From Sphaerolaimus hirsutus (lineage: Eukaryota > Nematoda > Chromadorea > Monhysterida > Sphaerolaimidae), in NCBI GenBank assembly GCA_964036195.1, contig OZ038450.1, positions 26,910,794 through 26,974,793 on the forward strand: a DNA stretch of 64,000 bases. Reading direction: 5' to 3'. Shown here one piece after another: positions 30,352 to 63,039 of this stretch. The notes beneath the pieces were generated by a model. It was not told the DNA's origin and did not search any database. It worked only from the letters and a program-made list of their open reading frames with translations. A program made the position numbers and the translations under genes. Position 1 is the stretch's first letter; every line of letters begins with the position of its first letter.

Positions 30352-30431
30352 AGTATGTAGTTGAGGCGTCTACTTATGGCTCGAAACTCGACTTTTTTCA
30401 AACTCTAGAGAAAGAGTGCAAAATTGCACTT

Positions 30432-39011: not shown

Positions 39012-39845
39012 GCAATACCAAAATTTAGCTTTAGGTATAATATTTTAAAATCTGATCGAATCTTGAAAAAAGACATCAATTTGTTTAATAATCTGAAAAA
39101 GTCAAATGCCAGCCAAGAGACTGCATGCTAGTGATGGTAAAGCGCCGGGAAAAATGGCACCAGGTGCCAACGGCACCTTCTGAAAAAATGGCCTCAAAAA
39201 GGAACAATGGCATGTAGCTACCGTATTTCCTGGAAATACCCCCCTGAACTACCCCCGCTCCCAAATTTAGCGTAAGGATAATGTAAATGACAAAAGCTGC
39301 AGTTTGTGATCGGGGTAATGCAGAACACATTAAAAACAATGACTGTGCTATGTTAGAACAGATTTTATCTCAACTGAGGCCTCTACTTCTAAAAGTTGAC
39401 AAGTCCACAAAAAGTTTTGATTAATCGAATTTTAAGTTTCAGACCCAATTCCAGGCCCGTGGTGCATGTCCAATTTGGCTCTCTCATGTTTTCCATTAAG
39501 TTCCATATGTTGACAATAAAGTATCAAATTTTCAGCCCCTGCTCTCAACCTTCATGTGAAAAATTGGGTGTCCATAAATTTCCATTCAGTCAGAGCAAAA
39601 CTGTTTTTGGGGGGAATTGGACTTGTTGACTTCTTGCACTCGAGAACATTTTTATTCCCTGCGACGAAGAAGCTGCCTTATGGGCAATTTATGGACTTGT
39701 CGACTTTTAGAATTAGCTGTCCATGACGGGCTCACCACATTTCTTGCTATTTTTACCAACAAAAATGAAGACAGAGGGTGGACTTGTTGACTTTTAGCAC
39801 GAAACTAAGTGGACTTGTCGATGTCGACTTCTGTAATGCGAGAAC
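39012..39845. repeat. Repeat debris left of the giant element
   Basis: 39130-39180 is a single end of the TAGTGATG family. 39219 starts a truncated CCGTATTTCC MITE. 39384-39830 has inverted TTGACAAGTCCAC / GTGGACTTGTCGA motifs at its edges and repeats of GACTTGTYGACTTTTA inside, so it is probably another inverted-repeat element. It touches the first hairpin of the next unit. Confidence 0.5.
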
Positions 39846-39902
39846 TGACGGCGGGCCACCAAAGTGCCAGACCTACGTCTCTGGGACGGTAGCCCAGCGT
39901 CA
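39846..39902 (+). repeat. CCTACGYC hairpin 1 (5' leader)
   Basis: Outer arms TGACGGCGGGCCACC and GGTAGCCCAGCGTCA pair at about 12 of 15 positions. Inner stem CCAGA/TCTGG, loop CCTACGTC at 39872-39879. Internal-loop bases AAAGTG and GAC as in other copies. Confidence 0.85.
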
Positions 39903-40050
39903 ATTAACGCTTACTGAACCCTAAGTATGGCGCTTTAGCCGCCGGGGACACCATATTGACCCCTTTTGGGCCAAGTAACGTCATTACGACGCCGTCCTAT
40001 ACGGAACCTAACTTATAGGGAACTTATGGCGCAACGGACGCCAACTATGG

Positions 40051-40115
40051 TAATTGGCGCCAGATCACCAAAGTGCCAGACCTACGCCTCTGGGACGGCG
40101 ATTAAGCGCGAATTA
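40051..40115 (+). repeat. CCTACGYC hairpin 2 (5' leader)
   Basis: Outer arms TAATTGGCGCCAGATCACC and GGCGATTAAGCGCGAATTA, inner stem CCAGA/TCTGG, loop CCTACGCC. It lies one unit (about 209 bp) from hairpin 1; the sequence between is a diverged tandem duplication with ATGGCGCTTTAGCCGCCGG-type and ACCTAACTT blocks shared up to about 40265. Confidence 0.85.
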
Positions 40116-40688
40116 CCATAGAACAGTAAATCGATGGCGCTGTGCCGCCGGCCTTAATTAACAAGACGGCTTAATTAGCCGCTTCCAGTCGTGAAAAGAA
40201 CCGGGTGACGTCATTCGACCTCCCCGGGAATGAAACCTAACTTTCATGAGAATTACGGCGCTTTTCATTAAAAAGAAAAGCAGCGCCAAGCAAAAAGTCG
40301 ACTCCCTTGGGCATGGCGGCCAAACGAGCGCCGGCAAACGACTTCGACGGCCGCGACAGCGCCGCGCCGCCGCCATTCGACACCCGCCGACCGCCGGAAC
40401 CCGGGAGAGGGGGATTTTGGTGTTTTGGGAGGGTTTTGTAAAGTGTCGAGTCGGCCACTCTTGGCCGAGTGCCAACCTTCGGAAAATGGCACCGAGTGTA
40501 TTTTCAAGGGGGGTTAAGTACTGTCGCCGTGTTTGGCGACAGTTTATCGCTCAAAACTTGTAAATCTCCCCTACCCAGACCCCGCGAGCGTCGACAGCGG
40601 TGGCCGCCGGAAATGTCCGCGGAGCGACAGACTTCGGCCGCTCAGAGCTTTTGGTGGGAGTGGCCACCGGAAGGGAGGGCCCCGATAG
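40116..40688. other. GC-rich leader sequence, no ORF supported
   Basis: The first part (to about 40265) is the second unit of the hairpin-bearing tandem duplication. The rest is GC-rich with overlapping frames of up to 105 codons on both strands. None has a start context or family signature that I would accept. Confidence 0.4.
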
Positions 40689-40713
40689 CTCCAGAAGCCT
40701 ACGTCCTTCGGAG
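40689..40713 (+). repeat. CCTACGYC hairpin 3 (5' leader, compact form)
   Basis: CTCC-A-GAAG pairs with CTTC-GGAG around loop CCTACGTC (40698-40705). No long outer arms are seen. It is followed by TAGAGACGGGTCAA, also found after hairpin 4. Confidence 0.8.
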
Positions 40714-40787
40714 TAGAGACGGGTCAACCCTTCTGGAGGGGTATGTGCCTTAGGTAAAATAGTAAAAATAGGGAGCGGCCTTGATAG

Positions 40788-40812
40788 CTCCTGAAGTCGA
40801 CGTCCTTCGGAG
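40788..40812 (+). repeat. CCTACGYC hairpin 4 (5' leader, loop variant)
   Basis: CTCCTGAAG pairs with CTTCGGAG. The loop is TCGACGTC instead of CCTACGTC. It is a diverged tandem copy of hairpin 3, about 99 bp away. Confidence 0.75.
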
Positions 40813-41550
40813 TAGAGACGGGCCAATCCCACAGGAAATTGGAACAGTGCCAAAAAGGCCGTTTTTGTGTGTAATTTGGCACATATCCCGTAGCCATTGC
40901 TGCCACAGGGAGGAGTTTTGTGATTTTGTAGGGTGTAGGAGTAGGTTTAGGGAGTAGGTTCGCGGTAGGTGCCGCGGTATGTGATTTATGGCGCGTATAT
41001 TTGTGTTTATTTGTATCTAATTACCTACCTAACCCCCTTAGTTTGTGATAATTGCATGTGTTCGTGATTGTATTTTTATGTTCGCACTTATTTCTGTGTT
41101 TCGCACGTATTTCTGTGTTTGCACTTTTGCACTTTGTGTTTAGCTTCACGTTGGCCGATTGGTACGCTGGTTTTGGACGAGCTCACGTTTGAGCAATTAC
41201 GGTTGTTTTTGTAATTTTGGTCCTTTTTGCATTTGCTTGCAGTCCGAGTAGCTGTGGATTCACTCGGCTTGTTTTTAGTTGTGTCATGCTTAGTTTTGAG
41301 AGTCTCACTCAGTTTAGGTACTTTTAAGCTGTTAGTTTGTGCATTTACATTCGGTAGGTTACTGTAGGTGGTTATTTCTAGTTTGGCACAGTTCCAGGAT
41401 TGGTTTTGTTAGCTGGCTGGGTGCCAGAAGAAAGGTGTTCCTGAATGTCAAGTCACCATTCCCTTGTTCCATTAAAAAGTAACCCTTGTGGTAACATGGC
41501 TCTGTTCAACTGAAGTCACTTATTTTCGGTACATTTTTGAATGCACTCTC
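40813..41550. other. Leader or upstream sequence, no gene seen
   Basis: T- and G-rich sequence with TTTGTGTTTATTTGTATC-type runs and a possible PPT-like GGGAGGAG near 40910. No hairpin copies, no ORF. Confidence 0.35.
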
Positions 41551-41640
41551 GTGATTGGTTGGCTCCGCCCAGCTGCAAACCGGTTTTGGGCACTTCAAAC
41601 CTATAAAAGAGAGCCCCAATCTTGTGATTATCATCAGTCT
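41551..41640 (+). promoter_or_regulatory. Pol II promoter upstream of the giant gag-pol ORF
   Basis: An inverted CCAAT box (ATTGG, 41554-41558) is directly followed by a GC box (GGCTCCGCCC, 41561-41570). TATAAAAG is at 41602-41609. An initiator-like TCAGTC lies at 41634-41639, about 30 bp downstream. The spacing is right for a promoter reading to the plus-strand ORF at 42307. Hairpins 1-4 lie upstream of it, so they would not be on this transcript. Confidence 0.65.
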
Positions 41641-42306
41641 ATTCAATCCAATTTTAATTACTAAGTCAGTGATTTACCAGCTGAAATGAGCCTACCCTTG
41701 GTTATTCATTCTCTGCTAACTCTGGCATAGGCCTTCTCTTCCCTCTGCACGGTGACATTTAGGTTCACAGGGGCAGGAGTGGCCACACGGAGCTGCCGGT
41801 ATAGCTAAGATAGGGTGTTGTATGGGGAGAACCCACCATCTGTGATGCTTACTGTACGTCTGGACCTCTGTGGACTTGTTTTAGGCGTAGTATAAGCTGA
41901 AGTAGGCTGTACACCTATTGACTCGCTCTAGGCTTTCGTAAGGGCCCAAACAGTTGTGCTACGTTGTCGTAGGATTACTTTTGATAGTGGTGCTGTGCCA
42001 AGCTAGGACTTAAGTACCTGGACTTGTGTGGTCTCTTACCAGTGTACCGTACTGCTATCCTCACCCGTCTGGTTTAGCTTATATGACCCTGAGTGTTATT
42101 TAGTCATTTTTGTATTACTGTTTGATTTGGAAAGTGGAAAGGTAAATTGGAAATATTTGAATACTTTGGAAACTTTATTTGCAACGTGATCCGAGAAACC
42201 CACTTAGTGTAATTCAAGCTTACTCTGGTGCAACTAATTCTCTACTTAATCTATTGGCTCATTCCAGCTAGTGGATCTAATTAATTCTATTCTAATTTGT
42301 GAAATC
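41641..42306 (+). other. 5' untranslated region of the gag-pol ORF
   Basis: No long ORF. A possible acceptor (ATTGGCTCATTCCAG) ends at 42267, 40 nt before the first in-frame ATG, so a leader intron is possible. No tRNA primer-binding site was recognised. Confidence 0.45.
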
Positions 42307-45300
42307 ATGATGGAAGTTGCTTTTATCTGCTTGCATTCGAGTGATGTTCAATTGTCGGTTTTCGAAGCGTGGGCTAATCTTGTTTCTGTTTCTGAAAATG
42401 CGCCAAGTCCTGAAGGTTTCTGGGAAGTTGATGATTTGGAAATGGGCCCTGTTTTTGATAGTTTTGAACCCGTGTCGGAAATATTTCAAATTCAGCGAAG
42501 GGCCACGTATGCGGAAAAGGTTCAGGGCGCTGGTGATTTTGTTACTGATTCTGTTCTGCCCAATGGCGAGATGACTAGTGGTGCTTCTCAGCAGTGGTTG
42601 CTTGATCACTTGATCATGGAGCCGGCTTTTGTTGAACCCGGAATTTGTGGTGTTTTTGAGAAAACCGCTGAAAGGCTGAAGAAAGTTGCGCAGCCTAGAG
42701 ACCTTTGGTATTTGGTGGGTAAGAGAGGGAAATTACAGCCGCACGTTATTCGCCGCAAGCTTTTGCAATTTGCGCGACCGGACTTTGTTAGCTGTGGCAA
42801 CCAAGTAGACCGAAAAGTTCCGAAGCCTACGTCCTTCGGAATAGCTAGGTCGAAAGGCACCAAGCTGGTGAAGTGTGGCAGACAGGATTCCCGCGCACGC
42901 GGCAAGCGTAGGGCTAGTAGGGCAATTGTTGATCGCCCAGTGGATACCATGTTGCTCGTTGAATTGTCAGAATTGTGCGATTATTTGGTTGGCGTGTTGC
43001 CATCGTTTGTCGTTCCACACATGCAAAAGGCAGTTAAGTCCCCTGTTAGGTGCTGTACATTTGGCGTAATTAGGCAGGATGGACTGCATGAGCGCATCGT
43101 TGAAAGTTCTGACGGAAATGGACACTGTCCAAGGTGTTGCTATCTGGCCCATAATGGTATTAGAAGCGGAGTTGCAAGACCGGGGGGGTATTCATATTAT
43201 ATTGGAGGTCCCACCTCGGGTCACGGCACCGTGTTGCACCCCCCTTTCACCCCCCTTTCACACCGCACACATAGCCACCCTCCATGCGTACAGGGCGTCG
43301 TGTTTCAGCTTAGCCCTATGCTACCGTGCACATACTGGAACCACAAATGTTGGCTTTTGCGTAAGCGTTTTGAACGTTTGAAATGTGTCTCACGCGCTTA
43401 TTACCGTTTGATTTCTTGGCACACTGCCCCATCCATGCTGCAACAGAGTCAAATTTCCAAATTTGAGGGGTTACGATACACCATGCCCTGGCGACGATTT
43501 TTGATGCGAATTCTGAAATTTTTGAAAAACTTTTCATGTCCCGCGTCAGTCAATTGTCAATTCAAAACTTTCGAAACTGTCGATGTCGAGCCAGAGCTAT
43601 GTCAATCATGTGAAAAATACGTGACCACTGACTACTCTTATGACTCATTTGATTATCAGTATTTATACTTGTCAGTTGACGATGGTGTACCATGGTCCTT
43701 TGATGATCTTGAGCAATCAACCGTACTGAGCTCGTCACCATGTGCTTCAATTGATAGTGGCTCACTAAAGTGCCAGACCTACGTCTCTGGGATTGTGGGC
43801 CAGTGTCAATTCGAGCATGATGTGGATTTGGCAGCTGGCCAGTATTCGTATTTGCCAGCTGATGATGGTGTATCAGGGCCTTCTGATGACTTGGAGTTTT
43901 CAACTGAATGGAGCTTGTCATCGCATGCTTCATTCGACAGTGACTCACTAAAATGCCAGACCGACGTCTCTGGGATTGTGAGTCACGGTCAATTTGAGCA
44001 TAGTGTTGATCTGGCAGCTAGCCAGCCTAGTACTCTAGATGACTCTACTTGTGACACGGATGTGGCTTTGGAACATGTGTGCTCCGCTACCTTGTCCGCG
44101 GCCCAATCGTTTCAAACAGTTTTTATTGAGGACTCACTCAACTCTTTCGAAATTATTGATGATTATATGGCCGACCCTGCGGCACTGAGCGGAGCGCACA
44201 CGACGCCAGACGCCAATGACAATTACATGGTTCACGCTGCGGATATTAATATGTTGCAGTACAATTCATCTTTGGGTGTGGTTACTCGCCGCCGCGGCAA
44301 TTCCAACCAGCAAAGCTTCTTTGAGTTAGACGGTAGGGAACGCGCGCGCCCTGTTGGTCAATGGGCCAGTACTAGCCGCCACGGTGTTACGTGTAGCGAT
44401 GTTGGTGACTCTGTGGGTTCTCGGGACCGGATGTCTGACCTAGCCACCCCAGCATATACTGCTGAGCCAGGGATGTCATATGTCAACGAGTCTCGGGATA
44501 CAGTGTTAAGACGTCCCCACGAAGAATTCCCTCACGCTACTAGTTCCCCGTGCCTGAGCATTCAATCTCCTAGTAGACCCCCCACCTCTGTCTGTGACCT
44601 AAGTACCCCCGCGAAACCACCACCTTCCAACCCTGTTAATAGCCCTCAACCCCAACCCTTCACTGGGCCGGTAAGACAACATCGAGAATTACTGACGAAT
44701 AACCAATCAGAGATTGATACTATGATTTCCCCCTTGCAACAAGCATGTGAACCTACTAAATTATGGGATCATCTGAGACCCTCAGATCAGTGCATTGGGG
44801 ATGTGTTACAACCTTTCGAACAACTTCTAAGCGAACTAGATCCTGAGATAAATAAGTTAGACCAGCTACTGTTTGACCTTGCTACTGTGACACCCTCTGA
44901 TCCATCCCAGCAAACCACTCTGGACAATGTTACCTCGGCCCTGATGACCCTTCGAACGTGGTCACAGGCAATGTTGCCATTCCGTGGATCCCTGCAAGAC
45001 TCCATTGACCGCACCCTAAGTGTTCATTTGAAACCCCGGGTCGATTCTCTAGCGGGTGATTTACAGTCCCTACTGAGTAACTTTTGTGCTGATGCGAATG
45101 CCCGGACTAAGCCCCCCGTTGATGTGACTACGCCGGCTCAGAGACAAGCGAACCAGCAGGTACTGGCAGCGTCAGACCCTGGCCCCGCGCGCCCACAGTC
45201 ACGCGCCTATCCCGTTCAGTGCGCGCTTGCGTTTATGCAATCCGTTTTGCTAGTTTCTGCACAGTCAGCAAGGGATTGGACTACTCTTCGTTCTCAGATC

Positions 45301-48300
45301 CAGTCGAAATCAACGGCTGGTGTCTTTGGCCTAGAAAATAAGGGCGTATCCCAAACAGTGCGCGCTGCAGCCTTGCGTAGCCTGACAGAGGCCTGGGTTT
45401 ACCTCGATGTGCATCGGACCGGATTTAATACGTACATGCCATTGCTTGGCACTCTGCCAGAAACAGCTCGGTATGCTATGGCCCAATTCCACGGATGCAT
45501 GGCTGAAGGCATTCGCCTCAACCATGCATTTGCGGATATATTACCTGAGATTAAGCGCCAAGTTAATGGTCCTGTCGCTCGTAAGACAAGGAAAGAATTG
45601 CTTGCACACCTTGGTAATACCCTGGACTCTGCCCGGGACCTTTTGTGCCGCCTAGAGGATCTGGACTTTGCGCAGTACAATGCCCTTTGTGCGATGCATA
45701 TCGGTCGGGTCTCAGACAGGTGTACCCCCCAGAAATGTCGGTTGGTGTGTCAGAATTTGCTGAACAACATTGGTTTTGGATTAGACTGGCTACACCAGCT
45801 GCGTGGAAAAACCCCTGTCCCGACACCCAAACCGCAACCTTCGCGGGTACTTGAGCCACATCAGAGCGCGCTCCAGCCGTCTATGTATACTACTCCATTG
45901 AACCGCAGCATTTCGGCCCTACCCCCTGTCTGGAATAATGTCTTAGTAGCCCACCTAATGAGCCCCGACCCTATGCGGCGCAAGGCGGCACATCAGTGGC
46001 CGCCTGATCCTTCTGTCAAAGTACAAACCGACCCGCCGCGTACTGTATTGACTGACTTATCTATGCACGCATGGGTAGAACCTGTAGGCCCGGAGTTCTC
46101 TGTTGGCCCAGTGGCGGAACTTGATGTCAAAACCACTTGGGTTGGTCGTATTTTGCCCACAGTCGGTATTATGGACACACCCTGGGCCATCATTGACCCA
46201 CGGAACACCGATCTCGTGCGCGCTTATTCAAAACTGTTGATCGCCGCTTACTTTGAGGCTGAATATATCTTCCAACTTGTGTTTTGTTATGGCTGGTTCC
46301 CAGATAGCTTACTCACCGCATTTCAGCGTTGCGCCTTCCTTGTGCAAAAGCTCGTCGACACGCTCGACCGCTCCATTAAGCATGGCGAGACAGTAGGCAT
46401 AACTGACACCTATCCATTACCCGAACAGTACCATATTAATGGTCGCTTTTTGTATAAATTGGCTAGTGATGCTCGTCGCGATTATATACAAGTTGGGGCT
46501 AATTACACTAAGTTGGCACGACGATATTCGGCGGTGCCTGTGCACACGACCCCGATGTTTCCAATCGACCGAAATAACCGCTTCGAGCACTCTCGCCGTC
46601 GCTTACAGTTACCTACCGCTCAAAACGTCCATTCACAAATGGTTCGGGTAACGAATAGTGTCAGTTGCGATGCTAATGTAGACATGATTCAGCCTGATGA
46701 TGTGGGAACAAGGGACAACCAATACGACTTTCTGTTGTCACACCAGGGTTATCAGCAGCCTGACCCCGCCGGTGGAGCCCCCGCACCCGCCACTGTGCAG
46801 GCGCCCCAGAGATTATATCATACGGGACACCAGCACACCGGTAGGCTCTCGGTTCCACCAGCACATCTCAGTTCTTCCGTAGCACCCACTTCGGCTTTAG
46901 ATCAACTTAAGTCAGAAATGGATCAAAAATATGCCAATATGCGTGACCAGATGGAGGCTATGAACGCTAACATGCGAGCCCTATTAGACCAAAGGCGTGC
47001 TCAATCACGAGCTCAGCCTCAAGTTTCGCAACCAAATGTATCAAACGATCCGCCTAGTACCACAACTAGTTCAGATGAGGATTTGGCTAAGCGTATTAAG
47101 AAGCTTAAGATGCTCGGTTGTCCCATGTTCTCGGGTAAAGCGTCTGTTGACGTCGGCCAGTGGCTAGCACAGTTTACTGCGAAATGTAGAATCTGCAAAA
47201 TAGCCTCTGACGAAGAAAGGGCTTTGACTCTGGCTGCTGTGTTGGAACATGATGCAGCTACGCTGTGTTATGGTCAACCGCAGGAAGTCCAGACCTCCTT
47301 TACGAAACTGGAGTCAGCTCTTAAAGCTCACTTTGGCCAGGCAAAACATGTGCTAGCTACATGCCGAGCGATTACACTTATGAATTGGAAACCGAATGAT
47401 ACGATCGATACTGTGCGACGCCGTTTGATGACCGAATCTGCGCAGTTGAAAGATGTGAATCACGGCGAGCGCGAATTGCGTATGATTGAGGGATTTTTGC
47501 ACGCTCTGGGTCAGCATAATTCCGAGTTGCGTCAATTAGTTGTATTAAATTCTGCTTCACTCGAGTCTTTTGACAAGCTGATCCAGCATGCTAAAGTCGC
47601 TCAACAGTCTTTGGAAAACCGTAAGCTTGAACAAGACCGCTCAGCTAAGGACACCGAGTTTAAGCGCATGCGCGATGAACTCTCGCAACTGCGGCAGCAA
47701 ATGTCTAATGCACGCATGGGTGATAACCGTCAGCAGTTGGGTGGCGGTATGTTAGCTGGCCAACGGCCAATGTTTCGACCACCGATGGATATGCGCCAAA
47801 ACCCGCGATTCGCCTTTCCCGCGCCACAAGCGCAACCTAGTGCTCAACCTCCATTTAATTCACAGCGCATGCCGTTTAGACCGCAACGGGATATCCCGCC
47901 TATGCGCCTACCACCTGCTGTACAAGGTCCGCGTTTTGCTCCGCGTCCAGCAGTTGATGTAGGGCCACCTGTAGTAGCTATTGATAAGCCCGGTCGACAG
48001 CCTCCCAATGCTTACAAGAGCTATTTTTGTGACAACTGTAAAATGTCCGGCCATACCACCGAGGAGTGTGGTCGCCGCGCAGCCGGTCCTACTTCATCTG
48101 GCCCCGCACCAGCCCAAACGCCGCGTGAGCCACTTAAGTGTTTTAAGTGCAATAAGCCTGGCCATTTCTCGCGTGAGTGTCCCGAAAACACGCCTGCGCA
48201 GAATGTCAATGAACTGTACGCACAGTACGATATCATACCCGATGATCAAATTGGTTACACTGATTTGCAAAACGATTTGGTCGATGGGGTAGCAGACCCT

Positions 48301-53517: not shown

Positions 53518-54476
53518 GAAACCCTGGAAGTTATAATTTTAAGTAATACGTAATACATGTGAGACCGTAGTTTAAGTTTCGCTTTTGTCTAAGTTTCGTT
53601 TTAGTTTCCAAACAACCTGTGGTTAGACCACGCAAGGGGGGAGGAGTGTGATGCCAGAGGTCCGGTATAGTATGTAATTCCCTTACGTAACCTTTTTATA
53701 TGTAGCTGTTTCTATATGTAACTTCTTTAGGTAATGATTTTCTCAATGTCTGTTTAAATAATTTTTCTTGGATTTTTATGATACCATTGGCATCATAACC
53801 CAACCATCGAGCATGTTGATAACACCCCGGTAGGGACATGCCTCTATAAAAATTTAATAGTCAGGTTGGAAGTAACGTGTCCTAGGTGTCGACCACAGGC
53901 ACCGGGAAACGTCTTGCTACTGCATCTTTATACATTCTACCTCGTTTATGTGGGTTATCTCGTTGCGTGATATCGGACACCTTGTACATCATTACGGGTG
54001 AGTAAAGAAAAGGTTGCACCTCCTCAAAAGATCGTGAGGCCCAGCTAAAAAGATTGTTGCGTTCACATTTAGGCCGTGTGAGTGGTATACTTAAGTTGTT
54101 GGGAATACGGTAGTGATGCAAAAAGTGAGAGCATGTTGTTATGAGGTCGCTTGGGTGCTGCGGTGTCCTCAATGCGCGAGAGACAGGTGCTTGCTCATGT
54201 CTCTCGCCCATCGAGGACAGACGTTGTCACCGGCAATTTGAGAAGTGGCCGTCTGAGTGAGACTCTCCATGCATGTTGATTGTCCGTACCCACGGCTATT
54301 ATTATTTACCACTGTCCGTTCATTGTCTGAGAGCGCTCAGCTGGTAGTGCACTAACACCACCCTACTCATTCTTGTGATTCCAGTGTCCTCTTAACCATT
54401 GTCCAATTCGCATGTGATTATAACATTGTCTCTTAACAGTAGGAAGACGTGCCATGTGGGGCGCGTGTTATAAGTT
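53518..54476 (+). other. 3' flank of gag-pol: polypurine tract and possible LTR start
   Basis: AAGGGGGGAGGAG at 53634-53646 is followed by TGTGATGCC, the usual arrangement of a polypurine tract before a 3' LTR beginning TG. A TATAAAAA at about 53845 could be its promoter. I could not find a matching copy of this sequence upstream of the gag-pol ORF. No ORF of note follows. Confidence 0.5.
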
Positions 54477-54528
54477 GCTGATGACCCTAAAGTCCCAAGC
54501 CTACATCCCTGGGATTGGGTTCATCAGC
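54477..54528 (+). repeat. CCTACGYC hairpin 10 (between the two ORFs)
   Basis: GCTGATGACCC pairs with GGGTTCATCAGC with a one-base bulge. Inner part TCCCAAG/CCTGGGA; loop CCTACATC. Confidence 0.85.
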
Positions 54529-55488
54529 CACTTTTGCGCCGTTTGGTGAATTATGATTTTTAGCTTGTGCTCTGGGTAGAAGATACACACCCATGTTACG
54601 GAGAAAAGATCATCTCCGTCCTGATTGAGCCCCACTACGTTCTTATTACCTTGTTCGCTTAGACCGCGCCCCATAGGTCTCCACCGCGGACTCGTTAGAC
54701 AACCTGACACCTAAATTTCTCGCTAAACTTACAATCTCTCCAAGCGCGGTAGTTCGCTCTGGCCCGCTGCACTTAGTGAGATAAGCGCTGCCTTCCTGCT
54801 ACTTTTTGCACCTTTTTATTGCATACAAATTTTGACAAAAAAACCCTTTCAATACAGACTTGGGTACTAAACTTTCCCGCCCCCGCACCCGGCCCGTAAA
54901 TTATATTTCTCGGAGGGCGACTTCGCCCGCTACCAGCTTCCCCCCGCTTTATTGTATTCGTGGCCAATTGGGCGTGCTAGTCGCTGTCTTTTGCCTTCTG
55001 GTGAGTGGACACAGTTACCCTTGTGAATACCTGTCATGTTGTGAGGTGTATTGATGTTAGCCCTTTGATCTCAGATTGTGTCGGCAGTGGCTCGCTGAGC
55101 GCCTTTCATTCCGCTGCCCTCCAGTTCTGTTGTTAAGGTGACTTATTTACTTTTTGTCGTGTAGTAATTCAGCCGCGATGTAGCCAGTAGTGGGAACAGT
55201 GTGAACCATCAGTTTTGAACACCGCAGTGTCTTTTCGATCGTGCAACGGGCGCACGTCTGCGATCGACGCGCGGCTCGTTTTTTGCCGTGCTCCGGTTGA
55301 GTTGGGACCACTGGCTGTGTGTCCCCCGGAAGTTGTGGTGCGATTAGATTGTTACGTGTTTTCTTTTTGTTTGAAATTTAATTCTTCGTACATTCCCTGT
55401 TTTTCGCGTGAATTTTTAATGTCGTGACCTTCCTGTTGAAATTTTTGATCCCGGTAGGAAACTTGTTACGTTTTGAGGGCGCGTTACA
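54529..55488 (+). other. Leader of the 2,015-aa gene, possible intron
   Basis: No long ORF. CTG/GTGAGT at 55001 is a good splice donor; TAATTCAG ending at 55172 is a possible acceptor, giving a 172-nt intron in the leader. A small stem, GGGCGACTTCGCCC, lies near 54917-54930. Splicing would explain how the second ORF is expressed from its own or a longer transcript. Confidence 0.4.
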
Positions 55489-58400
55489 ATGGCACAAGCG
55501 CACGCTTCTACTTCTGTATATAATGACGACGGTGTGTTGTGGGACGTACCTCACAGGGACGGCGTAATCCGCCGCAGCCTGGGCACGTTGGATAGTCCCG
55601 ACTCGGTAAGCGTGTCGTCGACGGTGTTTGAGTTGGGGAATCATATCGCCAACTTTTCACCGACGGCGTTTGAAGAGACCTTAGATAGTCGCAACTACCG
55701 GTTGCTCGACCAGGCCCTGCTCAAGGACGCAAATGCGTTCCTTCGGACCTGCAAACTGCCCACTCTTGGCGACGCGCCAAACCGGCTCTGTGAGGTACTG
55801 ACCTTTAATGCGGCTAGAGGTTTGCCTCCGAAACTGTTTGTGACACCGCGACGCAGCGATGACTGGCGTTTAGCCGACGCGGATGTGACGGGACGCCAAT
55901 TAGCCGAGCAAATGTTGACCGCCGTGCGGAACCATGCGTCAACCATCAGAAGCACCAAAAGAGAGGTCGTGGCGGCAGTCGCGACCTTTATACCGGAAAT
56001 GTTTTTGCAACCCGTAAACGAACCGGGTAGACAGCGGTTCGGATTCCGGAGCCTCTTGGATTATACACCGGAGGACCCTTTTGATGGTTGGATGCATACG
56101 CGCCCCGCGTTCGTGCGGAAATTCAAACAGATTTGGTCGTGTTATCCTGGCGATCCCATCGTGCAAGTCTTCATTCAGAACGCCAGGCAACTGGAGAATC
56201 TGGGTGATCATTTGCCCTCTATGGGACAGGATCAGCCCAGCGCGATCTCAATTTTGCTCGGCTATAAGAAGCCCCGTCACACTCGCGATAAGGATCCGTT
56301 TTTGGTGTCATTGTGTTTTCCGAATCGCGTCGTGGTTCACGTCCCGATCGCCCTGTTGCGTTCCACCACAAACGACTGGACCCCCTTGGCTGGGAAATTA
56401 TTGTTTGCGTGGGGTGACCCCCGGGCTGTTCGGTTGTACGCGTCTGAAGCGGAGCGGGCAACCTTGATTGGGATGTCCGGTACACCGCCTCCTCCTTGTA
56501 ATACCACCGGAGTCACCACAACCACCACACAGTGGTTGAGCTGTATTCCGGTGTTAGAAAAATTGTTGTTGATCACCGAAGAACTTCGCGTGGAGCACAA
56601 GGATGACTGTACCGACATTTCAGTCGAAGTGCTCGTTGCCGCCGCTTGGCAACTATTTTCCGGACAGACACTTAAGTGTCCCATTGGCTCGAAACACACC
56701 CCAATCGATATCGTGGAGGTCCAGGTGAACGACGCGTGGTTTGCAAACGCTTCGAGCCCCGCCCCTAGGGACCTCCAGGCTAGCTTGGAGACCCAAGGGT
56801 ACCGCGCGCAAACAATTTTGGACCTGTTTATCTTTGCGTGCTGGAACTCCATCCGATCCCCGGTGGCCCGCCCCATTGAGGCGGTCGATCATTTTCGTTC
56901 GATTAGCGATGATGGAGGTACCGGATTCATGCCGACACACCAACTGGATGTAGTCGGGCACAGACTCTCTCACAGGTACCCGCCCAAACAATTGCGCCGG
57001 GCGTCGAACGCCTTTTGTGAATGTAATCAGAAATCGGCGCCTTCGGATCCTCAACTGAACTGGCTGGAGGATCTGGTCGTAACGTACCTGGGGAGAGTTC
57101 TGTACCGACTGTTGACAGATAGGTCACTGACGACGTGGACTTGGCCTCAGCGTGGCGGGATGCCCACGACCGGTCCTCAGTGGTGCAGGTGGCTACAGGA
57201 GCTAAGGGATGTCTGGAGTTTCTCTGAAGTGGCAGTCCGCATTCTGCGGCGCTTACGCGAAATTGTGCCGTGCGTATTGACCTCCATGTTGGCAAGTTAT
57301 TTGGCCGCGGGGAACCGGGCGACCCCAAAACTGTTGATTGCGCTCCTTCCGCAAATTTTTCAGTATGTCAACTGGTTCTTTTTGATGCTGATTAGAGACG
57401 ATGAGCCGTCTATGGAAACTATGATGAGCGTGCACATTCGCACCTTGTGGCGCGAATTGAAAATCGCCAGCTCGGTGACCCCGACTGATGGTGGCCCCCC
57501 TACCCTAGCGGTGGCGCTGGATTTGGATCAGCTTCGCGTTTTCGGGTCGACCGATGCCCCCATGAGCGCGCTTCGATGGAAACTAGCGGCGCCGCTATCG
57601 CCAACGCTCCTAAGTTACACGCGCTGCTTTTTGGAGTGGATGAATTACGCGCGCTTTCAACAACATCCGGATATCGCGTATAAGCCACAACCACACCCAT
57701 TGCTTCCGGCCGACGCATATGCGCGCGCCACGTTTTTATTGTGGCAGGGCCCCGCCCCTTACCGCTATGATGAGCCGGAGTTGGAATTCGATGAGGATTT
57801 GTCGAACCACCAGCTTCGTGGGTTACCGCGTATAGACCACGCGGCGGTGTATGGCGACGTTCGCGCCCGCCTCGAAGCGGTAGGAGAGGGTAGGCTCTAT
57901 GATACCACCCCATTAGCAACCGTGCTGGACTTCTCAGCAAGGACCAAAGCATGCGGGCCAGTGCCGATGGCCAGTATTCACAACGTGCGCACCCACCCCC
58001 TTCTGCGTTGGCAACTGCCCACCAATCCCTGGGCTAACCCACGGTCGGACTTTGGAAGAGCGCACGTAGGAGTGCCACCCCTGCGAATTTTGAATAGCAG
58101 GTCGTGGTCGTTTTTGAACCACGGCCGCGGTGCTTGGGATACAGTTGCCGCCTCGGAAGGGGTGTTTTACTTGCTGCCGCTGTGCGCCGGCACACTCTCG
58201 CCGCTACTCGCTTGCATGCACATTTTGCGACAAGCGCACGCTCCTTCCGCGGACTTCCCGGCTCGCCTGTTAGCCACGGCGTGCGCGATGGCAAATGTGG
58301 AGTGGTTGGATGTCGTCACGGGCAGAGCCGAGGTGCCTCGCCGGTGCTGGCTCAGTACTCTGGCGATACATTATGGCATTCCGACCGTGCTGCTATACTC

Positions 58401-61400
58401 AGAAAACAGCACGCCCCCGAATGCTTTTAGTGTTTACGGCCAGGGCACCCAGACCGCTCTGCATTGCCAGTGCGCTGTAGTCGTGGTGGTGGGCAGCGAC
58501 TGGTTTGTGCATGACATCGAATTTGGACAAGTGCGCTGCGTTTTTCCGCGCGGCCGCTGCACCGAGTTGACCGAGACGCACATTCTCGACGAGGCGAATT
58601 TGCCCGCGGAGGATACCGCTCGTGTCAGCCGGAATTATGGCGACATTGCAGCCTATAATCGCGAGCCGCCCCAAGCGGACACCGTCGAGTGGAAGACGTG
58701 GATGCTGGTGTGTCAACTGAACGGGATTTACTATGGGTGGACGACGCCCCCGGTTGACAGACTACTGCCCACGCTGGCCGCCGACATGTGCCCCCTTGAG
58801 GAGGCCCTGTTTGACCTGCAAGTCCAAGGGGCACAGCCGGATGAAATTGAAGCGCTAAACTATTTCCACGCTGTGATCATGCATGTCGGTCTGGTAGAGC
58901 CTCGCGCCTTGCCAGCTCCCGATGACCCCCGCCGGCGCATTTTGAACCCTGACGAGTCGGTAGATGAAGGGATGTCCTCAGCCGCCCCTAGCGTAGTGGG
59001 ACAGCTGGAAATTGTAGTCCCAATGGAGGTCGCGGCCGGCGAGGAGCAGTCCGATGCGGGTGTCTCGGCTGACCACGTTCCGGCTAGCTGGTCCCAAGAG
59101 GTGGAGGCCGCGAACCGGGCCGAGGGCACCTATAGACTCCGCATCGTACCCCTCCAGCCGGTGCGCAACCAGCTCGCTAAGGAAGTGTTTGAATGCGCAA
59201 TTGACGATAGAATTCGCGCCGTAGCAGGGACATTGCTTGGTCACGACGACTCAGGGGACAAAGAAAGGCTGGACGCGCTGGGTTTTTCTAAAACAGCGGT
59301 GTGGTCATCATTTGGCCTGGTTGAACCCTTAGAACCGGCAGCGTATTTGGTGCCGGAACTGGGAGACGACCCCTTTGACGGTTTTGGACTGATTCCAGTC
59401 CGCGACGCCTACGTGCCACCGGCTGCACTTATCCAGCCAGACGGCGAGGTCCAAGTGGCCCCGGTTAACCCGGCCGTGAATAGCTTTCACACGCACGAGC
59501 AGGGTCGGCAGTTTTTCCGCAAGCAAAATGTCCCGTACATTAGGCTCGAAACAGGGTTGGTTCTGGGGATTATGGACAGCACCCCTTACTTCTACTGTGA
59601 GGTCCCTATTGAGAGTCGCATGATTGACGTTTGGCGCCGGGAGGCCTGGCTACCCATGACGCAGCATTGGGATGATCTGCTCCCAGGACACATCGCGCAG
59701 TTGTTTAGCATCTTTTGCCAATATTATGCGGCAACGATGCAAGGGGAAGACGTTCGACCGTTCTTCAACTTGGAGACTAAACAACTGCAGTTGGTGCGGA
59801 ATGCAGGGCTCCCACCTGCAGCGTCAGGGGAGGCCGAGTTGAATTACTGGCTGGCAAATGCGTTTGGGCCGGCTGAACGCGCCCGCTTAGTGGCCGTCGC
59901 GAGGAGCAGAGGGCATTATGACCCTGACTGGTCCCCGCGACACCCGTTGAGGAGGCCCATGAGCGAGTGGCTCCAGCCGGAGCAAACGTACGCGCCTGGT
60001 TGGGAAAGGCTACACATTGAAAGCGTGCCCCTCCCGCTCCGCCCCCTTTATGTTGAGATGCTTATGAGCCTCAGCTTGGACGAATCTCGGTACACCTCTA
60101 ATGCGGGACGCACCTTGCGTTGCTTCCTCGACAACTTCAGCGACAAACCGCCCTTGACCTTGGAAGTCCCTGTGCCGCCCAACGTTTTCACTGACTCGGA
60201 TGAGGTACGGCCTGTTCTGCCAATAGGACACCGCTACTTTAGCGGCGGCGTGAACACGACACTGACCAGGTGCATTTTGAACTGGCTGTCGTTTTGGCGC
60301 AACCAGCGGGAACTCTTGCGTGTGTTGGTGCTCTCAAACGAACAGTGGGCGGCATATCGTGTGCGCTTCCCTGAGGCGCCACGAACCTGGGCCAGATGGC
60401 TGGCCCGACCTCGGCAAACTGATCTGAACCAGTTGCGGGCGATGCTTGACAAGACTCAGGACGAGTTTACGGCCTTCTTGTTGCGCGCGAAGATCGTGTG
60501 TGCGATTGTTAAGAGACCCTCTGACCTTGTCTTGCAACCCGTGTTGAACACATCTTTAGGTCGTTGGCTCGACTTTCGGTTGTACATCCTACGGCTGCTG
60601 GCACTGGACGGGAGTCCCGGCTTGGGGCGACCGGACGTGCACGCAGGCGTGGGTACGATATCGATTGGCGATTACCACGCATATCTATTCTTCTCCGGAG
60701 ACAGTCCGTTGGGAAACTTCTTTAGTGCCCCTATCCCACTAATGGGTGATCTGTACGTGCCGTCATCTGAGCACTTGTATCACGCTCTGCAGTTGATCTT
60801 TAGCGGGGATCACGATCTAATTGTGCCCCTGCTCAGACACTCGGAGCCTAGGCGCTGCAAGTCTCAGATGACGTCCTGGCGTAGGGAGGGTAGAATCGCC
60901 AACTGGAAACTGAAGCAGCAGGAGTGGCACAACTGCGGTCTTGCCGTCGCGGCCATGCACGCTGTTTTGAGATTCAAATTGGCGACCTGCCCGGCCTACC
61001 GGAACGCCCTCGTCAACAACCCCGATTCGATCTTTATTGAGGCAAGTCCGCATGACCCGTTCTGGGGTATTAAGCAAGGCATGAACGACCGGACTCTTTG
61101 GACAAACGTAGAGACGTGGGGTGACAACTACCTGGGACGGTTGCATATGACTATGGCGGAGCAGTTAGCGCGCGAACCCGTGCAGCGTCCGTGGCCCGTT
61201 CTGAGTCTAAACGAGTTGGCGATGTCCATTCTGGCGAAATGCAGAGGCGCCGTCCAACGGCCGCGACCGCTCCAACCGCTGTCCACTGAACTTGTTGATA
61301 GGATCGCACGGTGCAGGGCGGTTCGACGGTATGCTCCCAACGAAATTCCGCCAACTATCATGACGGTGCAGTTTGTTCAAGGCCAAGATCCAATCATTGC

Positions 61401-61536
61401 GAGTAGACAACAGGTGGAATTGGGCCAGCGTCCCATTCCACAACTCGCAGTAATCGAACGCGAGCATAATCTGCCGCGAGGTGCCAACAAGGCCAGCCGC
61501 AGGATGCACCGCCTGCGCCAGGCTCGCACTAAGTAG
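55489..61536 (+). CDS. 2,015-aa protein with C-terminal NADAR-like domain
   Basis: One intact ORF from ATG 55489 (context ACAATGG) to TAG 61534. Residues 1-1720 match no family I can name. The C-terminal part, about 1727-1893, fits NADAR (YbiA/DUF1768), proteins acting on ADP-ribose or NAD-derived compounds: FFSGDSPLGNFFSAPI, then YVPSSEHLYHALQLIFSG (Glu1761), the run AVAAMHAVLRFK, IEASPHDPFWG (Trp1859) and LGRLHMTMAEQL, in family order. There is an unusual insertion before the WG motif's Gly/Asn segment. A middle region, about 870-1010, has a weak OTU-protease-like pattern. No signal peptide or clear membrane segment. The ORF is GC-rich compared with the left half of the window. It lies between hairpin 10 and the nine-hairpin array, so probably belongs to the same element as gag-pol. 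Confidence 0.8.
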   Translation: MAQAHASTSVYNDDGVLWDVPHRDGVIRRSLGTLDSPDSVSVSSTVFELGNHIANFSPTAFEETLDSRNYRLLDQALLKDANAFLRTCKLPTLGDAPNRLCEVLTFNAARGLPPKLFVTPRRSDDWRLADADVTGRQLAEQMLTAVRNHASTIRSTKREVVAAVATFIPEMFLQPVNEPGRQRFGFRSLLDYTPEDPFDGWMHTRPAFVRKFKQIWSCYPGDPIVQVFIQNARQLENLGDHLPSMGQDQPSAISILLGYKKPRHTRDKDPFLVSLCFPNRVVVHVPIALLRSTTNDWTPLAGKLLFAWGDPRAVRLYASEAERATLIGMSGTPPPPCNTTGVTTTTTQWLSCIPVLEKLLLITEELRVEHKDDCTDISVEVLVAAAWQLFSGQTLKCPIGSKHTPIDIVEVQVNDAWFANASSPAPRDLQASLETQGYRAQTILDLFIFACWNSIRSPVARPIEAVDHFRSISDDGGTGFMPTHQLDVVGHRLSHRYPPKQLRRASNAFCECNQKSAPSDPQLNWLEDLVVTYLGRVLYRLLTDRSLTTWTWPQRGGMPTTGPQWCRWLQELRDVWSFSEVAVRILRRLREIVPCVLTSMLASYLAAGNRATPKLLIALLPQIFQYVNWFFLMLIRDDEPSMETMMSVHIRTLWRELKIASSVTPTDGGPPTLAVALDLDQLRVFGSTDAPMSALRWKLAAPLSPTLLSYTRCFLEWMNYARFQQHPDIAYKPQPHPLLPADAYARATFLLWQGPAPYRYDEPELEFDEDLSNHQLRGLPRIDHAAVYGDVRARLEAVGEGRLYDTTPLATVLDFSARTKACGPVPMASIHNVRTHPLLRWQLPTNPWANPRSDFGRAHVGVPPLRILNSRSWSFLNHGRGAWDTVAASEGVFYLLPLCAGTLSPLLACMHILRQAHAPSADFPARLLATACAMANVEWLDVVTGRAEVPRRCWLSTLAIHYGIPTVLLYSENSTPPNAFSVYGQGTQTALHCQCAVVVVVGSDWFVHDIEFGQVRCVFPRGRCTELTETHILDEANLPAEDTARVSRNYGDIAAYNREPPQADTVEWKTWMLVCQLNGIYYGWTTPPVDRLLPTLAADMCPLEEALFDLQVQGAQPDEIEALNYFHAVIMHVGLVEPRALPAPDDPRRRILNPDESVDEGMSSAAPSVVGQLEIVVPMEVAAGEEQSDAGVSADHVPASWSQEVEAANRAEGTYRLRIVPLQPVRNQLAKEVFECAIDDRIRAVAGTLLGHDDSGDKERLDALGFSKTAVWSSFGLVEPLEPAAYLVPELGDDPFDGFGLIPVRDAYVPPAALIQPDGEVQVAPVNPAVNSFHTHEQGRQFFRKQNVPYIRLETGLVLGIMDSTPYFYCEVPIESRMIDVWRREAWLPMTQHWDDLLPGHIAQLFSIFCQYYAATMQGEDVRPFFNLETKQLQLVRNAGLPPAASGEAELNYWLANAFGPAERARLVAVARSRGHYDPDWSPRHPLRRPMSEWLQPEQTYAPGWERLHIESVPLPLRPLYVEMLMSLSLDESRYTSNAGRTLRCFLDNFSDKPPLTLEVPVPPNVFTDSDEVRPVLPIGHRYFSGGVNTTLTRCILNWLSFWRNQRELLRVLVLSNEQWAAYRVRFPEAPRTWARWLARPRQTDLNQLRAMLDKTQDEFTAFLLRAKIVCAIVKRPSDLVLQPVLNTSLGRWLDFRLYILRLLALDGSPGLGRPDVHAGVGTISIGDYHAYLFFSGDSPLGNFFSAPIPLMGDLYVPSSEHLYHALQLIFSGDHDLIVPLLRHSEPRRCKSQMTSWRREGRIANWKLKQQEWHNCGLAVAAMHAVLRFKLATCPAYRNALVNNPDSIFIEASPHDPFWGIKQGMNDRTLWTNVETWGDNYLGRLHMTMAEQLAREPVQRPWPVLSLNELAMSILAKCRGAVQRPRPLQPLSTELVDRIARCRAVRRYAPNEIPPTIMTVQFVQGQDPIIASRQQVELGQRPIPQLAVIEREHNLPRGANKASRRMHRLRQARTK

Positions 61537-61566
61537 CTTTTATCCGACATAGAGGAGCGCAGTGTA

Positions 61567-61629
61567 TGGGTGTCGGGACTAAAGTGCCAAGCCTACGCCC
61601 TTGGGATTGTCCCGGCGCAAATACACCCA
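61567..61629 (+). repeat. CCTACGYC hairpin 11 (3' array)
   Basis: TGGGTGT-CGGGAC pairs with GTCCCG-8 nt-ACACCCA. Inner stem CCAAG/CTTGG; loop CCTACGCC. First copy after the 2,015-aa ORF, 31 nt behind its stop. Confidence 0.85.
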
Positions 61630-61699
61630 ACTCCTTGATGCCTGATCGGTTTTATTTGGCGACTGTGTCGATGGCTATACTTTTATATGAGTTTATTAA

Positions 61700-61748
61700 G
61701 CCGGAGGATTAAAGTCCCAAGCCTACGTCCCTGGGATTATCCAATGGC
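61700..61748 (+). repeat. CCTACGYC hairpin 12 (3' array)
   Basis: GGAT/ATCC next to GCC/GGC outer pairs; inner TCCCAAG/CCTGGGA; loop CCTACGTC. Weakest outer arms of the array. Confidence 0.75.
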
Positions 61749-61807
61749 GACGCCAGATTTATTGAAATTTAACTATGCAGTTATTATTGTCATGACGGCG
61801 CAATGCT

Positions 61808-61858
61808 GTGTTGGGGTCTAAAGTGCTAGACCTACGCCTCTGGGATTGACCCCAGCAC
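61808..61858 (+). repeat. CCTACGYC hairpin 13 (3' array)
   Basis: GTGTTGGGGTC pairs fully with GACCCCAGCAC (one G-T). Inner stem CTAGA/TCTGG; loop CCTACGCC. AATAAA follows at about 61937. Confidence 0.85.
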
Positions 61859-61977
61859 TCCACGGCGGCGTACTGACGAGATCACTGTTTTAAAGCCTCA
61901 CACAGTTGCGCAATTTAAATGCTACTTATCTCTGAGAATAAAAGGGCTCCTTTCTTGCATTGCACGTGCGCTATGAT

Positions 61978-62036
61978 GGCTGACTGGTGAATTAAAGTCC
62001 CAAGCCTACGTCCCTGGGATTATTCTAAGGCCAGCC
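61978..62036 (+). repeat. CCTACGYC hairpin 14 (3' array)
   Basis: GGCTG...GAAT pairs with ATTC...CAGCC. Inner TCCCAAG/CCTGGGA; loop CCTACGTC. Confidence 0.8.
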
Positions 62037-62082
62037 ACATAGTCGCCAGAACCCCGTACTTTATTGACAGCTCTATCGTGTA

Positions 62083-62143
62083 GTGTGCCGTCGGTGGCTG
62101 AAGTGCCAAGCCTACGTCCCTGGGACTGCCACTGGTGGCACAC
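62083..62143 (+). repeat. CCTACGYC hairpin 15 (3' array)
   Basis: GTGTGCC and GTGGC pair with GCCAC and GGCACAC; inner TGCCAAG/CCTGGGA with A-C mismatch; loop CCTACGTC. Confidence 0.85.
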
Positions 62144-62285
62144 GGCATGGTATTGCTGGTCCTTTCAATTTGAGAACCACTCGTTTCGCCCTTGAATTTC
62201 TTTGGTCGCGCATCCAACCAAACAACCTGAAACCGAAAACTGTAACCATTTACTCTTCGGAAACAGCGCCACTTCGCAATACGGT

Positions 62286-62330
62286 CTGGTGCCTAAAGTG
62301 CCAAGCCTACGTCCTTGGGATTGGCACCGG
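62286..62330 (+). repeat. CCTACGYC hairpin 16 (3' array)
   Basis: TGGTGCC pairs with GGCACCG; inner stem CCAAG/CTTGG; loop CCTACGTC. AATAAA follows at about 62374. Confidence 0.85.
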
Positions 62331-62538
62331 CTGTGTAGCGTTGTGGTGCGGAAAACGGGTTAAATAACCTCAGGGAATAAACTAAATGGTCCCAGGATTT
62401 ATTGTCACGCCGCTTGCCTCGTTTGCGATTCTGTATTCCTCATCTTCGCGCAGTTTTCGTCATTCCCCTCACATTTTGGGACCCTTTCCCTTATTCTTGT
62501 CACTTTTGAGTTGCCACAGTGTCACTTCGCAACGCGGT

Positions 62539-62583
62539 CTGGTGCCTAAAATGCCAAGCCTACGCCCTTGGGATTGTCGCCAG
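62539..62583 (+). repeat. CCTACGYC hairpin 17 (3' array)
   Basis: CTGGTG pairs with CGCCAG; inner stem CCAAG/CTTGG; loop CCTACGCC. It and hairpin 16 sit in a tandem duplication of about 250 bp (62271-62522 and 62523-62770). AATAAA follows at about 62629. Confidence 0.85.
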
Positions 62584-62821
62584 CTGTGTAGCGTTGTGGT
62601 GCGTAAGATGGGTTCAAATATTTTCAGGGAATAAAATTAAATGGTCTCAGGATTAATAGTTACGCCGTCCGCCGCATTTGCGATTTTATATCCTTCATTT
62701 TTGCGCATTTTTCTGCCATTTTTACCGCATTTTTTGGGGACTTTTTCCCTATTTTTGCCATTTTTAGTTGCCATTCTGATTTTTTTTGTGTGTGTATGCA
62801 GCAAATTATAGGGGCGCGGTG

Positions 62822-62876
62822 TGTGCGTTGGAACCTAAAGCGCCAAGCCTACGTCCTTGGGGTTGGTATCGACACA
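62822..62876 (+). repeat. CCTACGYC hairpin 18 (3' array)
   Basis: GTGCGTTGGAACC pairs with GGTATCGACACAC at 11 of 13 positions, G-T included. Inner stem CCAAG/CTTGG; loop CCTACGTC. AATAAA follows at about 62899. Confidence 0.85.
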
Positions 62877-62957
62877 CACACACCTAACCCTGGCTTTTAA
62901 ATAAAAGGAAGTCTTCCATTTAGATTGCAATTTTGTACATATTTTTGGGTATCACGT

Positions 62958-63031
62958 CTCTGAGGGCCAGGTCGAGGGGCTAAAGTGCCAAGCCTACGTC
63001 CCTGGGACTGTCCCGTGGCCTGGACCCAGAG
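62958..63031 (+). repeat. CCTACGYC hairpin 19 (3' array, last copy)
   Basis: CTCTGAGGGCCAGGTC pairs with the GGCCTGGACCCAGAG side with small bulges. Inner TGCCAAG/CCTGGGA; loop CCTACGTC. An AATAAA directly follows at 63034-63039 and is the best candidate for the 3' end of the element's transcript. Confidence 0.85.
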
Positions 63032-63033
63032 GC

Positions 63034-63039
63034 AAATAA
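63034..63039 (+). terminator. Poly(A) signal behind the last hairpin
   Basis: AATAAA three bases after the right arm of hairpin 19. Similar signals follow hairpins 13, 16, 17 and 18, so several 3' ends are possible. Confidence 0.5.

Follow-up and report, generated by a model that had tools for sequence, protein, structure and literature searches.

Repeated hairpins with a CCUACGYC loop in a giant Ty3/gypsy retrotransposon of the nematode Sphaerolaimus hirsutus, candidate sites of RNA recognition

We analysed a 64,000-nucleotide stretch of the genome of the nematode Sphaerolaimus hirsutus (assembly GCA_964036195.1, contig OZ038450.1, positions 26,910,794 to 26,974,793; hereafter the window), which carries 19 plus-strand hairpins closed by the loop CCUACGYC or a close variant. 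The hairpins belong to one giant Ty3/gypsy long terminal repeat (LTR) retrotransposon with three open reading frames (ORF1 to ORF3), their stems covary, and their cores evolve about 10 times slower than their surroundings among copies of the element. We conclude that they are almost certainly functional RNA structures, and we tentatively propose that they act in cis as recognition sites for a protein, with packaging by the Gag protein of the element as our first choice of function.

The hairpin family and its common fold

Within the window the octamer CCTACGYC is found 18 times against an expectation of 1.75, and none of 100 shuffles reached 18. Sixteen of these are on the plus strand and every one is a hairpin loop, the remaining two are on the minus strand and are not. 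Three variant loops, TCGACGTC (40797), CCGACGTC (43961) and CCTACATC (54500), bring the total to 19, so that the octamer count and the folds confirmed both the number and the common strand given by an original prediction made from the letters alone. RNAfold gives all 19 a hairpin fold that has the octamer at its tip, drawn as an open 8-nt loop in 14, whilst in five, all A.C-mismatched (48767, 61722, 62005, 62111 and 62993), a 2-bp apex is drawn inside the loop. The prediction had placed the 19 in one family; three of them (40698, 40797 and 42826) have a CUUCGG-side stem and form a second class, B, which was excluded from the covariance model and from all pair counts. The model was built from the 17 class-A copies (16 in the window and one at 64333) and run unfiltered over the whole window, where it re-found its 16 window members at E ≤ 8.4e-14 (by construction) and added the class-B copies at 42826 (E = 1.2e-4) and 40698 (E = 0.019), noise starting at E = 0.044. 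This class-A model did not recover the class-B copy at 40797, and at E < 0.04 neither 1-39800, nor the pol part of ORF1, nor ORF2 yielded a match.

The hairpins in the window, each named by the position of its loop, are:

39844 to 39907, plus strand: hairpin 1, class A, loop 39872, in the 5' LTR; fold and covariance model
40053 to 40116, plus strand: hairpin 2, class A, loop 40081, in the 5' LTR; fold and covariance model
40670 to 40733, plus strand: hairpin 3, class B, loop 40698, in the 5' LTR; fold and covariance model
40769 to 40832, plus strand: hairpin 4, class B, loop TCGACGTC at 40797, in the 5' LTR; fold only
42798 to 42861, plus strand: hairpin 5, class B, loop 42826, in the 5' LTR and inside the ORF1 frame
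43750 to 43813, plus strand: hairpin 6, class A, loop 43778, in ORF1; fold and covariance model
43933 to 43996, plus strand: hairpin 7, class A, loop CCGACGTC at 43961, tandem duplicate of hairpin 6
48532 to 48595, plus strand: hairpin 8, class A, loop 48560, in ORF1; fold and covariance model
48739 to 48802, plus strand: hairpin 9, class A, loop 48767, in ORF1; fold and covariance model
54472 to 54535, plus strand: hairpin 10, class A, loop CCTACATC at 54500, between ORF1 and ORF2
61564 to 61627, plus strand: hairpin 11, loop 61592, opening a nine-hairpin array after ORF2
61694 to 61757, plus strand: hairpin 12, loop 61722, in the array
61803 to 61866, plus strand: hairpin 13, loop 61831, in the array
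61977 to 62040, plus strand: hairpin 14, loop 62005, in the array
62083 to 62146, plus strand: hairpin 15, loop 62111, in the array
62278 to 62341, plus strand: hairpin 16, loop 62306, in the array
62531 to 62594, plus strand: hairpin 17, loop 62559, duplicate of hairpin 16
62820 to 62883, plus strand: hairpin 18, loop 62848, in the array
62965 to 63028, plus strand: hairpin 19, loop 62993, in the array

The family was predicted to span 39846 to 63031; it continues past that range with a unit at 64333 and with copies in the 3' LTR at 65102, 65311, 65928, 66027 and 68056 (coordinates above 64,000 extend the window into the next 10 kb of sequence). Nine of about 20 units lie within 1.4 kb between ORF2 and ORF3.

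The 17 class-A copies align without gaps over 64 columns, numbered from 28 nt before the loop. They share an outer helix (columns 9-16 with 46-53), a bulge on the 5' side (17-19, UAA or AAA), an inner helix (20-28 with 37-45) in which the opposed columns 23 and 42 hold G.G or C-G, and the loop itself (29-36), the plan of each unit being an 8-nt loop, a helix of 8-9 bp, a 5' bulge of three nucleotides, rich in A, and an outer helix that varies. The stretches TAAAGTG and GATT had been read as the two sides of an open internal loop, a description that does not survive the alignment: three or four of these positions pair, leaving only the 3-nt bulge and the G.G (or C-G) position. Over the 17 sequences and 17 pairs, 82.0% of cells are paired, compared with 66.3 ± 1.6% after shuffling (0 of 500 as high) and at most 46.0% in slid registers. 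The covariation score, 0.473 compared with 0.196 shuffled, was likewise equalled in 0 of 500 shuffles and exceeded all slid registers, as expected of the single covarying family that had been proposed. On two weaker measures, double-sided change affects 11 pairs (8.5 shuffled; 1 of 500 as high), namely all eight outer pairs and three inner pairs, and there are 32 further pair types (26.7 shuffled; 9 of 500 as high). RNAalifold, run unaided, agreed on the outer helix and on most of the inner pairs and drew the apex differently. The outer arms are variable, as predicted, but not wholly unrelated between copies: those at 39872, 40081, 43778, 43961 and 48560 share 60-81% over 63 nt, and because these five are partly related and two pairs of hairpins are duplicates, the 17 copies are not fully independent.

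The strand on which the fold acts can be judged from its mismatches, since a G.U pair is stable in sense RNA and its complement is not. G.U exceeds A.C by 13:4 in seven outer pairs and by 9:0 in the middle pairs (together 22:4 over the 17 copies), whilst in the inner stem the balance is reversed at 1:7, with every A.C at one column, giving 23:11 overall. The excess of G.U therefore favours a fold in plus-strand RNA. The original prediction had allowed either RNA or single-strand DNA; the outer and middle helices point to the former, one inner position to the opposite, and we consider it moderately well supported by these pair counts that the fold acts in plus-strand RNA, not in single-strand DNA.

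Selection on the hairpins and the element that carries them

Selection was measured among copies of the element. After ORF2, 13 copies were aligned and 12 compared (L020, a near twin of L019, was dropped), and the hairpin cores diverge by 1.2% compared with 11.9% in random blocks of the same region, none of 500 random sets being as low. Divergence is 11.6% outside the hairpins, 6.7% in the outer arms, 2.4% in the bulge, 1.0% in the inner stem and 1.0% in the loop when its position 7 is left aside, position 7 alone reaching 14%. The five hairpins in the ORF1 frame, compared in nine copies, allow RNA and protein constraint to be separated: fourfold-degenerate sites differ in 0 of 858 comparisons in the cores and in 4063 of 35,076 (11.6%) elsewhere, third codon positions in 1.25% compared with 10.7%, and first and second positions in 2.1% and 2.2% compared with 3.3% and 2.6%. 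A change at loop position 7 alters the amino acid in all five hairpins, yet 31% of comparisons differ there (none in 42826, 38% in the other four hairpins). Silent sites are thus constrained where an amino-acid-changing site is free, and it is therefore the RNA, not the protein, that is constrained here. Compensated change is also seen within single slots: at 61831, 11 of 13 copies have the stem CCAGA/TCTGG, one has CCAAG/CTTGG and the window has CTAGA/TCTGG; C-G has become U-A at the base of 62993; and U-A has become C-G in 42826, beside a lost pair. Covariation and the tenfold conservation together support the prediction that a fold is under selection and that the loop belongs to what is recognised.

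The same hairpins were sought in the 348-Mb genome with a 27-place core pattern, which at up to three mismatches matched 1310 sites, the reversed control matching 0. The 100 listed sites, which all match exactly and lie on contig C1 no further along than 17.99 Mb, were placed by their RT (reverse transcriptase), LTR and 3'-region matches; the other 1210 include every inexact match. Clusters of full or truncated element copies hold 97 of the 100, one lies in an element fragment (89% identity over 1103 bp), one in an LTR match (C1:12834166) and one in a diverged LTR piece (84.6% over 492 bp). No site among these 100 of 1310 falls outside the element, its fragments or lone LTRs, in line with the prediction that copies are restricted to relatives of the element, and the total is of the order of magnitude that would result from the copies of the family and its lone LTRs. 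Few such sites are expected in other Ty3/gypsy families of this genome. A search of the whole window against Rfam at gathering scores returned only U4 and two transfer RNAs (tRNAs), with no hairpin family and no self-cleaving ribozyme, and at E ≤ 10 the region 61500-63200 gave a single minus-strand small nucleolar RNA match far below its cutoff. The core pattern had no exact match in a virus and a prokaryote collection (viral_contigs and genome_contigs), where absence means little.

The element spans 28.6 kb (39832 to 68431). Its two LTRs are 99.64% alike over 3370 bp and the sequence CTTC, the target duplication, is repeated at both flanks. Pfam matches in ORF1 run RT, RNase H, integrase in that order between the LTRs, the arrangement of Ty3/gypsy. 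Its parts in the window are:

39832 to 43201, plus strand: 5' LTR, with its twin at 65062-68431
42250 to 53517, plus strand: ORF1, an open frame of 3755 codons with a gag side, a CCHC knuckle near 48140, RT, RNase H and integrase
55489 to 61536, plus strand: ORF2, 2015 amino acids, with a NADAR domain near the C-terminus (60751-61167) and no other domain found
63431 to 64000 in the window, plus strand: ORF3, probably spliced, with an exon at 63431-63768, an intron at 63769-63828 and a second exon extending beyond the window

The element is multi-copy: 115 of 1639 candidate RT matches were scored and at least 61 of them are 95-100% identical in amino acids, the next Ty3/gypsy family among the scored matches being only 36-39% identical. 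An ORF1 frame of at least 3734 codons is free of stops in 36 of these 61 copies. In the 30 best-scoring copies, a biased set, the RT (50512-51573) diverges by 10.7% at fourfold sites and by 0.02% in amino acids, very strong selection for a retrotransposon. At one further place, C1:510648-562773, LTRs and internal regions alternate (LTR-internal-LTR-internal-LTR) in equal steps of 25,765 bases, and a 2.96-kb segment made up of the end of the 3' LTR and its flank is duplicated in tandem (67437-73349, 99.5% identical), which is either real or an effect of assembly. Protein searches with pol gave 3740 matches, and the 120 listed include relatives at 33-48% identity, of which those with a name are animal proteins. 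No relatives were retrieved in such searches by the NADAR part or by ORF2, nor by the RT in the virus collection, an absence that means little. The ORF1 frame starts within the 5' LTR (42250-43201), where divergence has a period of three from 42400 on, so that the LTR may encode the N-terminal end of the polyprotein.

In ORF3 (63338-64141) divergence is codon-periodic, and the element probably has a third gene there, which is spliced. It has an ATG at 63431 and a stop at 64139-64141 (139-141 of the adjoining 10 kb), its 60-nt intron keeps GTGAG and TTTCAG ends in 13 of 13 copies, and an acceptor-like AG upstream is present in 12 of 13; its pieces matched no Pfam family. Just before it, 63250-63350 is very conserved with no clear codon periodicity, perhaps as splicing signals. 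Elsewhere in the window the minus strand holds another RT reading frame (1216-5319, 1367 amino acids, RT domain at its C-terminal end) and, at 30431-30810 and 32869-33009, two tRNA-Arg(TCT) genes and a U4 small nuclear RNA gene, the two tRNA genes standing 308 bases apart in identical 150-bp stretches.

Candidate functions

A fixed loop and an A-rich 5' bulge, held at a fixed distance on stems that are otherwise free, give the units the form of a bipartite protein site. We suppose that a protein would read the loop CCUACGYC and the bulge together, 8-9 bp apart at a fixed helical distance, with the outer helix merely supporting the unit, such that any pairing sequence would be allowed there. 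Counted from a TATA box at 41602, a full-length RNA would hold about 20 units: one in the transcribed part of the 5' LTR, four further ones in ORF1, one in the gap between ORF1 and ORF2, nine between ORF2 and ORF3, one after ORF3 and four in the 3' U3. The reader would most likely be the element's own Gag, for which ORF1 has a zinc-knuckle region (CCHC near 48140), and many sites on each RNA could give selective, cooperative capture and packing into particles, in the manner of dispersed packaging signals, which likewise place many hairpins with a common loop and bulge on one RNA. The nine-hairpin array is upstream of the ORF3 acceptor-like site, so a spliced ORF3 RNA would lose it and a full-length RNA would keep it. 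We infer protein binding, Gag as the binder and packaging as the outcome alike, and whilst packaging or protein sites, already among the roles first proposed, remain the best reading of the hairpins, the larger proposition, that an LTR retrotransposon assembles its particles by a code of about twenty dispersed, near-identical hairpins under RNA-level selection inside a coding frame, is one we regard as possible but rather doubtful.

Several observations count against this account or against the fold beneath it. The predicted complementarity of the stems holds for most pairs, but the inner pair 27/38 is G-C in six, A-U in four and A.C in seven of the 17 class-A copies, and such an A.C would be G.U on the minus strand; columns 23 and 42 are unpaired in 13 of 17. 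Uncompensated changes within single slots are common, mostly in the outer arms. Gap cells make up 5.8% of the cores compared with 4.3% of the background, partly through missing units, and whole units can indeed be absent, one unit standing in place of 62306 and 62559 in 5 of 13 copies. The main objection to packaging is that the hairpins are unevenly spread, with none in the RT-integrase part or in ORF2; they are dispersed over only part of the element, unlike an even coat of packaging signals across a whole genome, and this distribution would fit an array for export or regulation about equally well. The array would also stay in a spliced ORF2 RNA, so genomic RNA would not be uniquely marked by it, and the transcription start is placed from the TATA box only.

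Nuclear export or trafficking is the rival we take most seriously, though we think it unlikely: the hairpins would recruit an adaptor, from the host or from the element itself (the ORF3 product, for instance), to the long RNA, which would thereby leave the nucleus with its intron, as happens with a constitutive transport element or a Rev-type array. The probable intron and the very long unspliced messages would create an export problem, the hairpins cluster within the part that ORF3 splicing would remove, and ORF3, being small, spliced and 3', resembles the regulatory genes of complex retroviruses, which have these same three features. Rfam gave no known transport element, however, the ORF3 pieces match no Pfam family, and the copies in ORF1 and the 3' U3 would be redundant. 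Control of the message by a host RNA-binding protein (through stability, translation or modification, as with iron-responsive elements or the METTL16-read hairpins of MAT2A) shares the array plan of a conserved loop on variable stems, several times over in a non-coding 3' stretch, but we think it improbable, as the loop and bulge differ from both of those systems, copies also lie in ORF1 and the LTR, and strong selection by the element would be needless for a site that serves the host.

The remaining explanations fare worse. Contacts between loops, suggested originally because ACGU is self-complementary, might serve dimerisation or RNA folding, and the dimer sites of retroviruses do use palindromic loops. 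Position 7, however, varies at about the background rate (14% compared with 11.6%), 28 of 120 distinct hairpins have a C there that destroys the palindrome, and the predicted self-duplex of the octamer, at only -2.7 kcal/mol, is weak and ordinary (34% of random octamers are as good or better), leaving this explanation very improbable. We hold a DNA-level site, whether a cruciform, a hairpin in single-stranded complementary DNA or a site for a DNA-binding protein, to be equally remote: four copies per LTR do stand in U3, upstream of the presumed transcription start, and the A.C at 27/38 runs opposite to the G.U excess, but the 22:4 ratio in the outer and middle helices favours RNA and compensated arms are needless for a site in double-stranded DNA. 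A functionless small repeat spreading inside the element would account for the two duplications that carry hairpins, but it is already largely refuted by the tenfold conservation, the compensated changes, the silent-site constraint and the fact that none of the 100 listed sites lies outside the element, and we give it almost no weight.

Three narrower ideas were rejected. AATAAA lies within 110 nt downstream of 5 of the 10 hairpins of 61537-65062 (against an expectation of 1.5, and in only 0.2% of random placements). Conservation of the five hexamers, in 7, 2, 7, 6 and about 2 of 13 copies, is however no better than that of background hexamers (55%), and a link to polyadenylation was dropped. 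There is no sign of a complementary partner for the loop, the reverse complement of which occurs twice on the plus strand (1.75 expected on both strands). The likeness of UACG to an anticodon arm also fails, as the loop is 8 nt long and has a pyrimidine in the place of a purine of the anticodon loops of tRNAs.

Comparison with known systems

Retroelements are usually thought to choose their RNA by one compact signal near the 5' end. The constitutive transport elements of simple retroviruses are, like the hairpins, cis-acting structured RNA of retroelements; they consist of few, large structures, unlike these some twenty small units, which have no Rfam match. Iron-responsive elements also combine a conserved terminal loop, a 5' bulge at fixed distance and a variable lower stem, several per transcript, but theirs is a CAGUGN hexaloop with a bulged C five pairs below; the present units differ in loop, bulge and distance, do not qualify as iron-responsive elements and again have no Rfam match. 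The METTL16-methylated hairpins of MAT2A are likewise repeated in a 3' region with a fixed loop and variable stems, but their loop sequence is different and MAT2A is a host gene.

Among giant Ty3/gypsy elements, the Burro elements of planarians and the Ogre elements of plants, as described in the available part of the source (PMC6431247), share the size class, the Ty3/gypsy pol and the extra coding capacity; Burro has one huge polyprotein and accessory reading frames, the present element ORF1, a NADAR-bearing ORF2 and a spliced ORF3. In that part of the article 'hairpin' occurs twice, both times of Helitrons, and 'stem-loop' is absent. Gypsy elements with an acquired NADAR domain occur in Ectocarpus (PMC12477816, main text as available), though the placement differs, the domain here being near the C-terminus of a separate ORF2; that text uses neither 'hairpin' nor 'stem-loop'. 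Literature matches to the loop octamer strings had no retroelement title among those listed. Within Rfam and the literature searched, the hairpin family and its code, the number of units on each RNA and the element that carries them appear to be new, in line with the original remark that no described element of this form was known, whilst repeated recognition hairpins as a kind are already known, and the architecture is that of the MS2 packaging signals (PMC6281560, in the part of the article available).

In MS2, as that part describes them, many dispersed hairpins on one RNA have variable stems, a motif in common in the loop and a 5' bulge that contains an A, as here. The differences are that the loop of the present element is the 8-nt CCUACGYC with a bulge of 3 nt placed 8-9 bp from it, and that the carrier is an LTR retrotransposon, its hairpins very alike and known here from sequence. 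If our reading is right, the element has some twenty units that can stand in for one another and follow a clear code, with many natural variants in a single genome, which would allow a direct test of whether a retroelement RNA of such great length is assembled or exported through recognition at multiple sites. As each unit is small and natural copies reveal the rules of its loop and bulge, short RNAs would serve to test binding. Should packaging prove to be the function, the hairpins would be a retroelement counterpart of the MS2 packaging signals.

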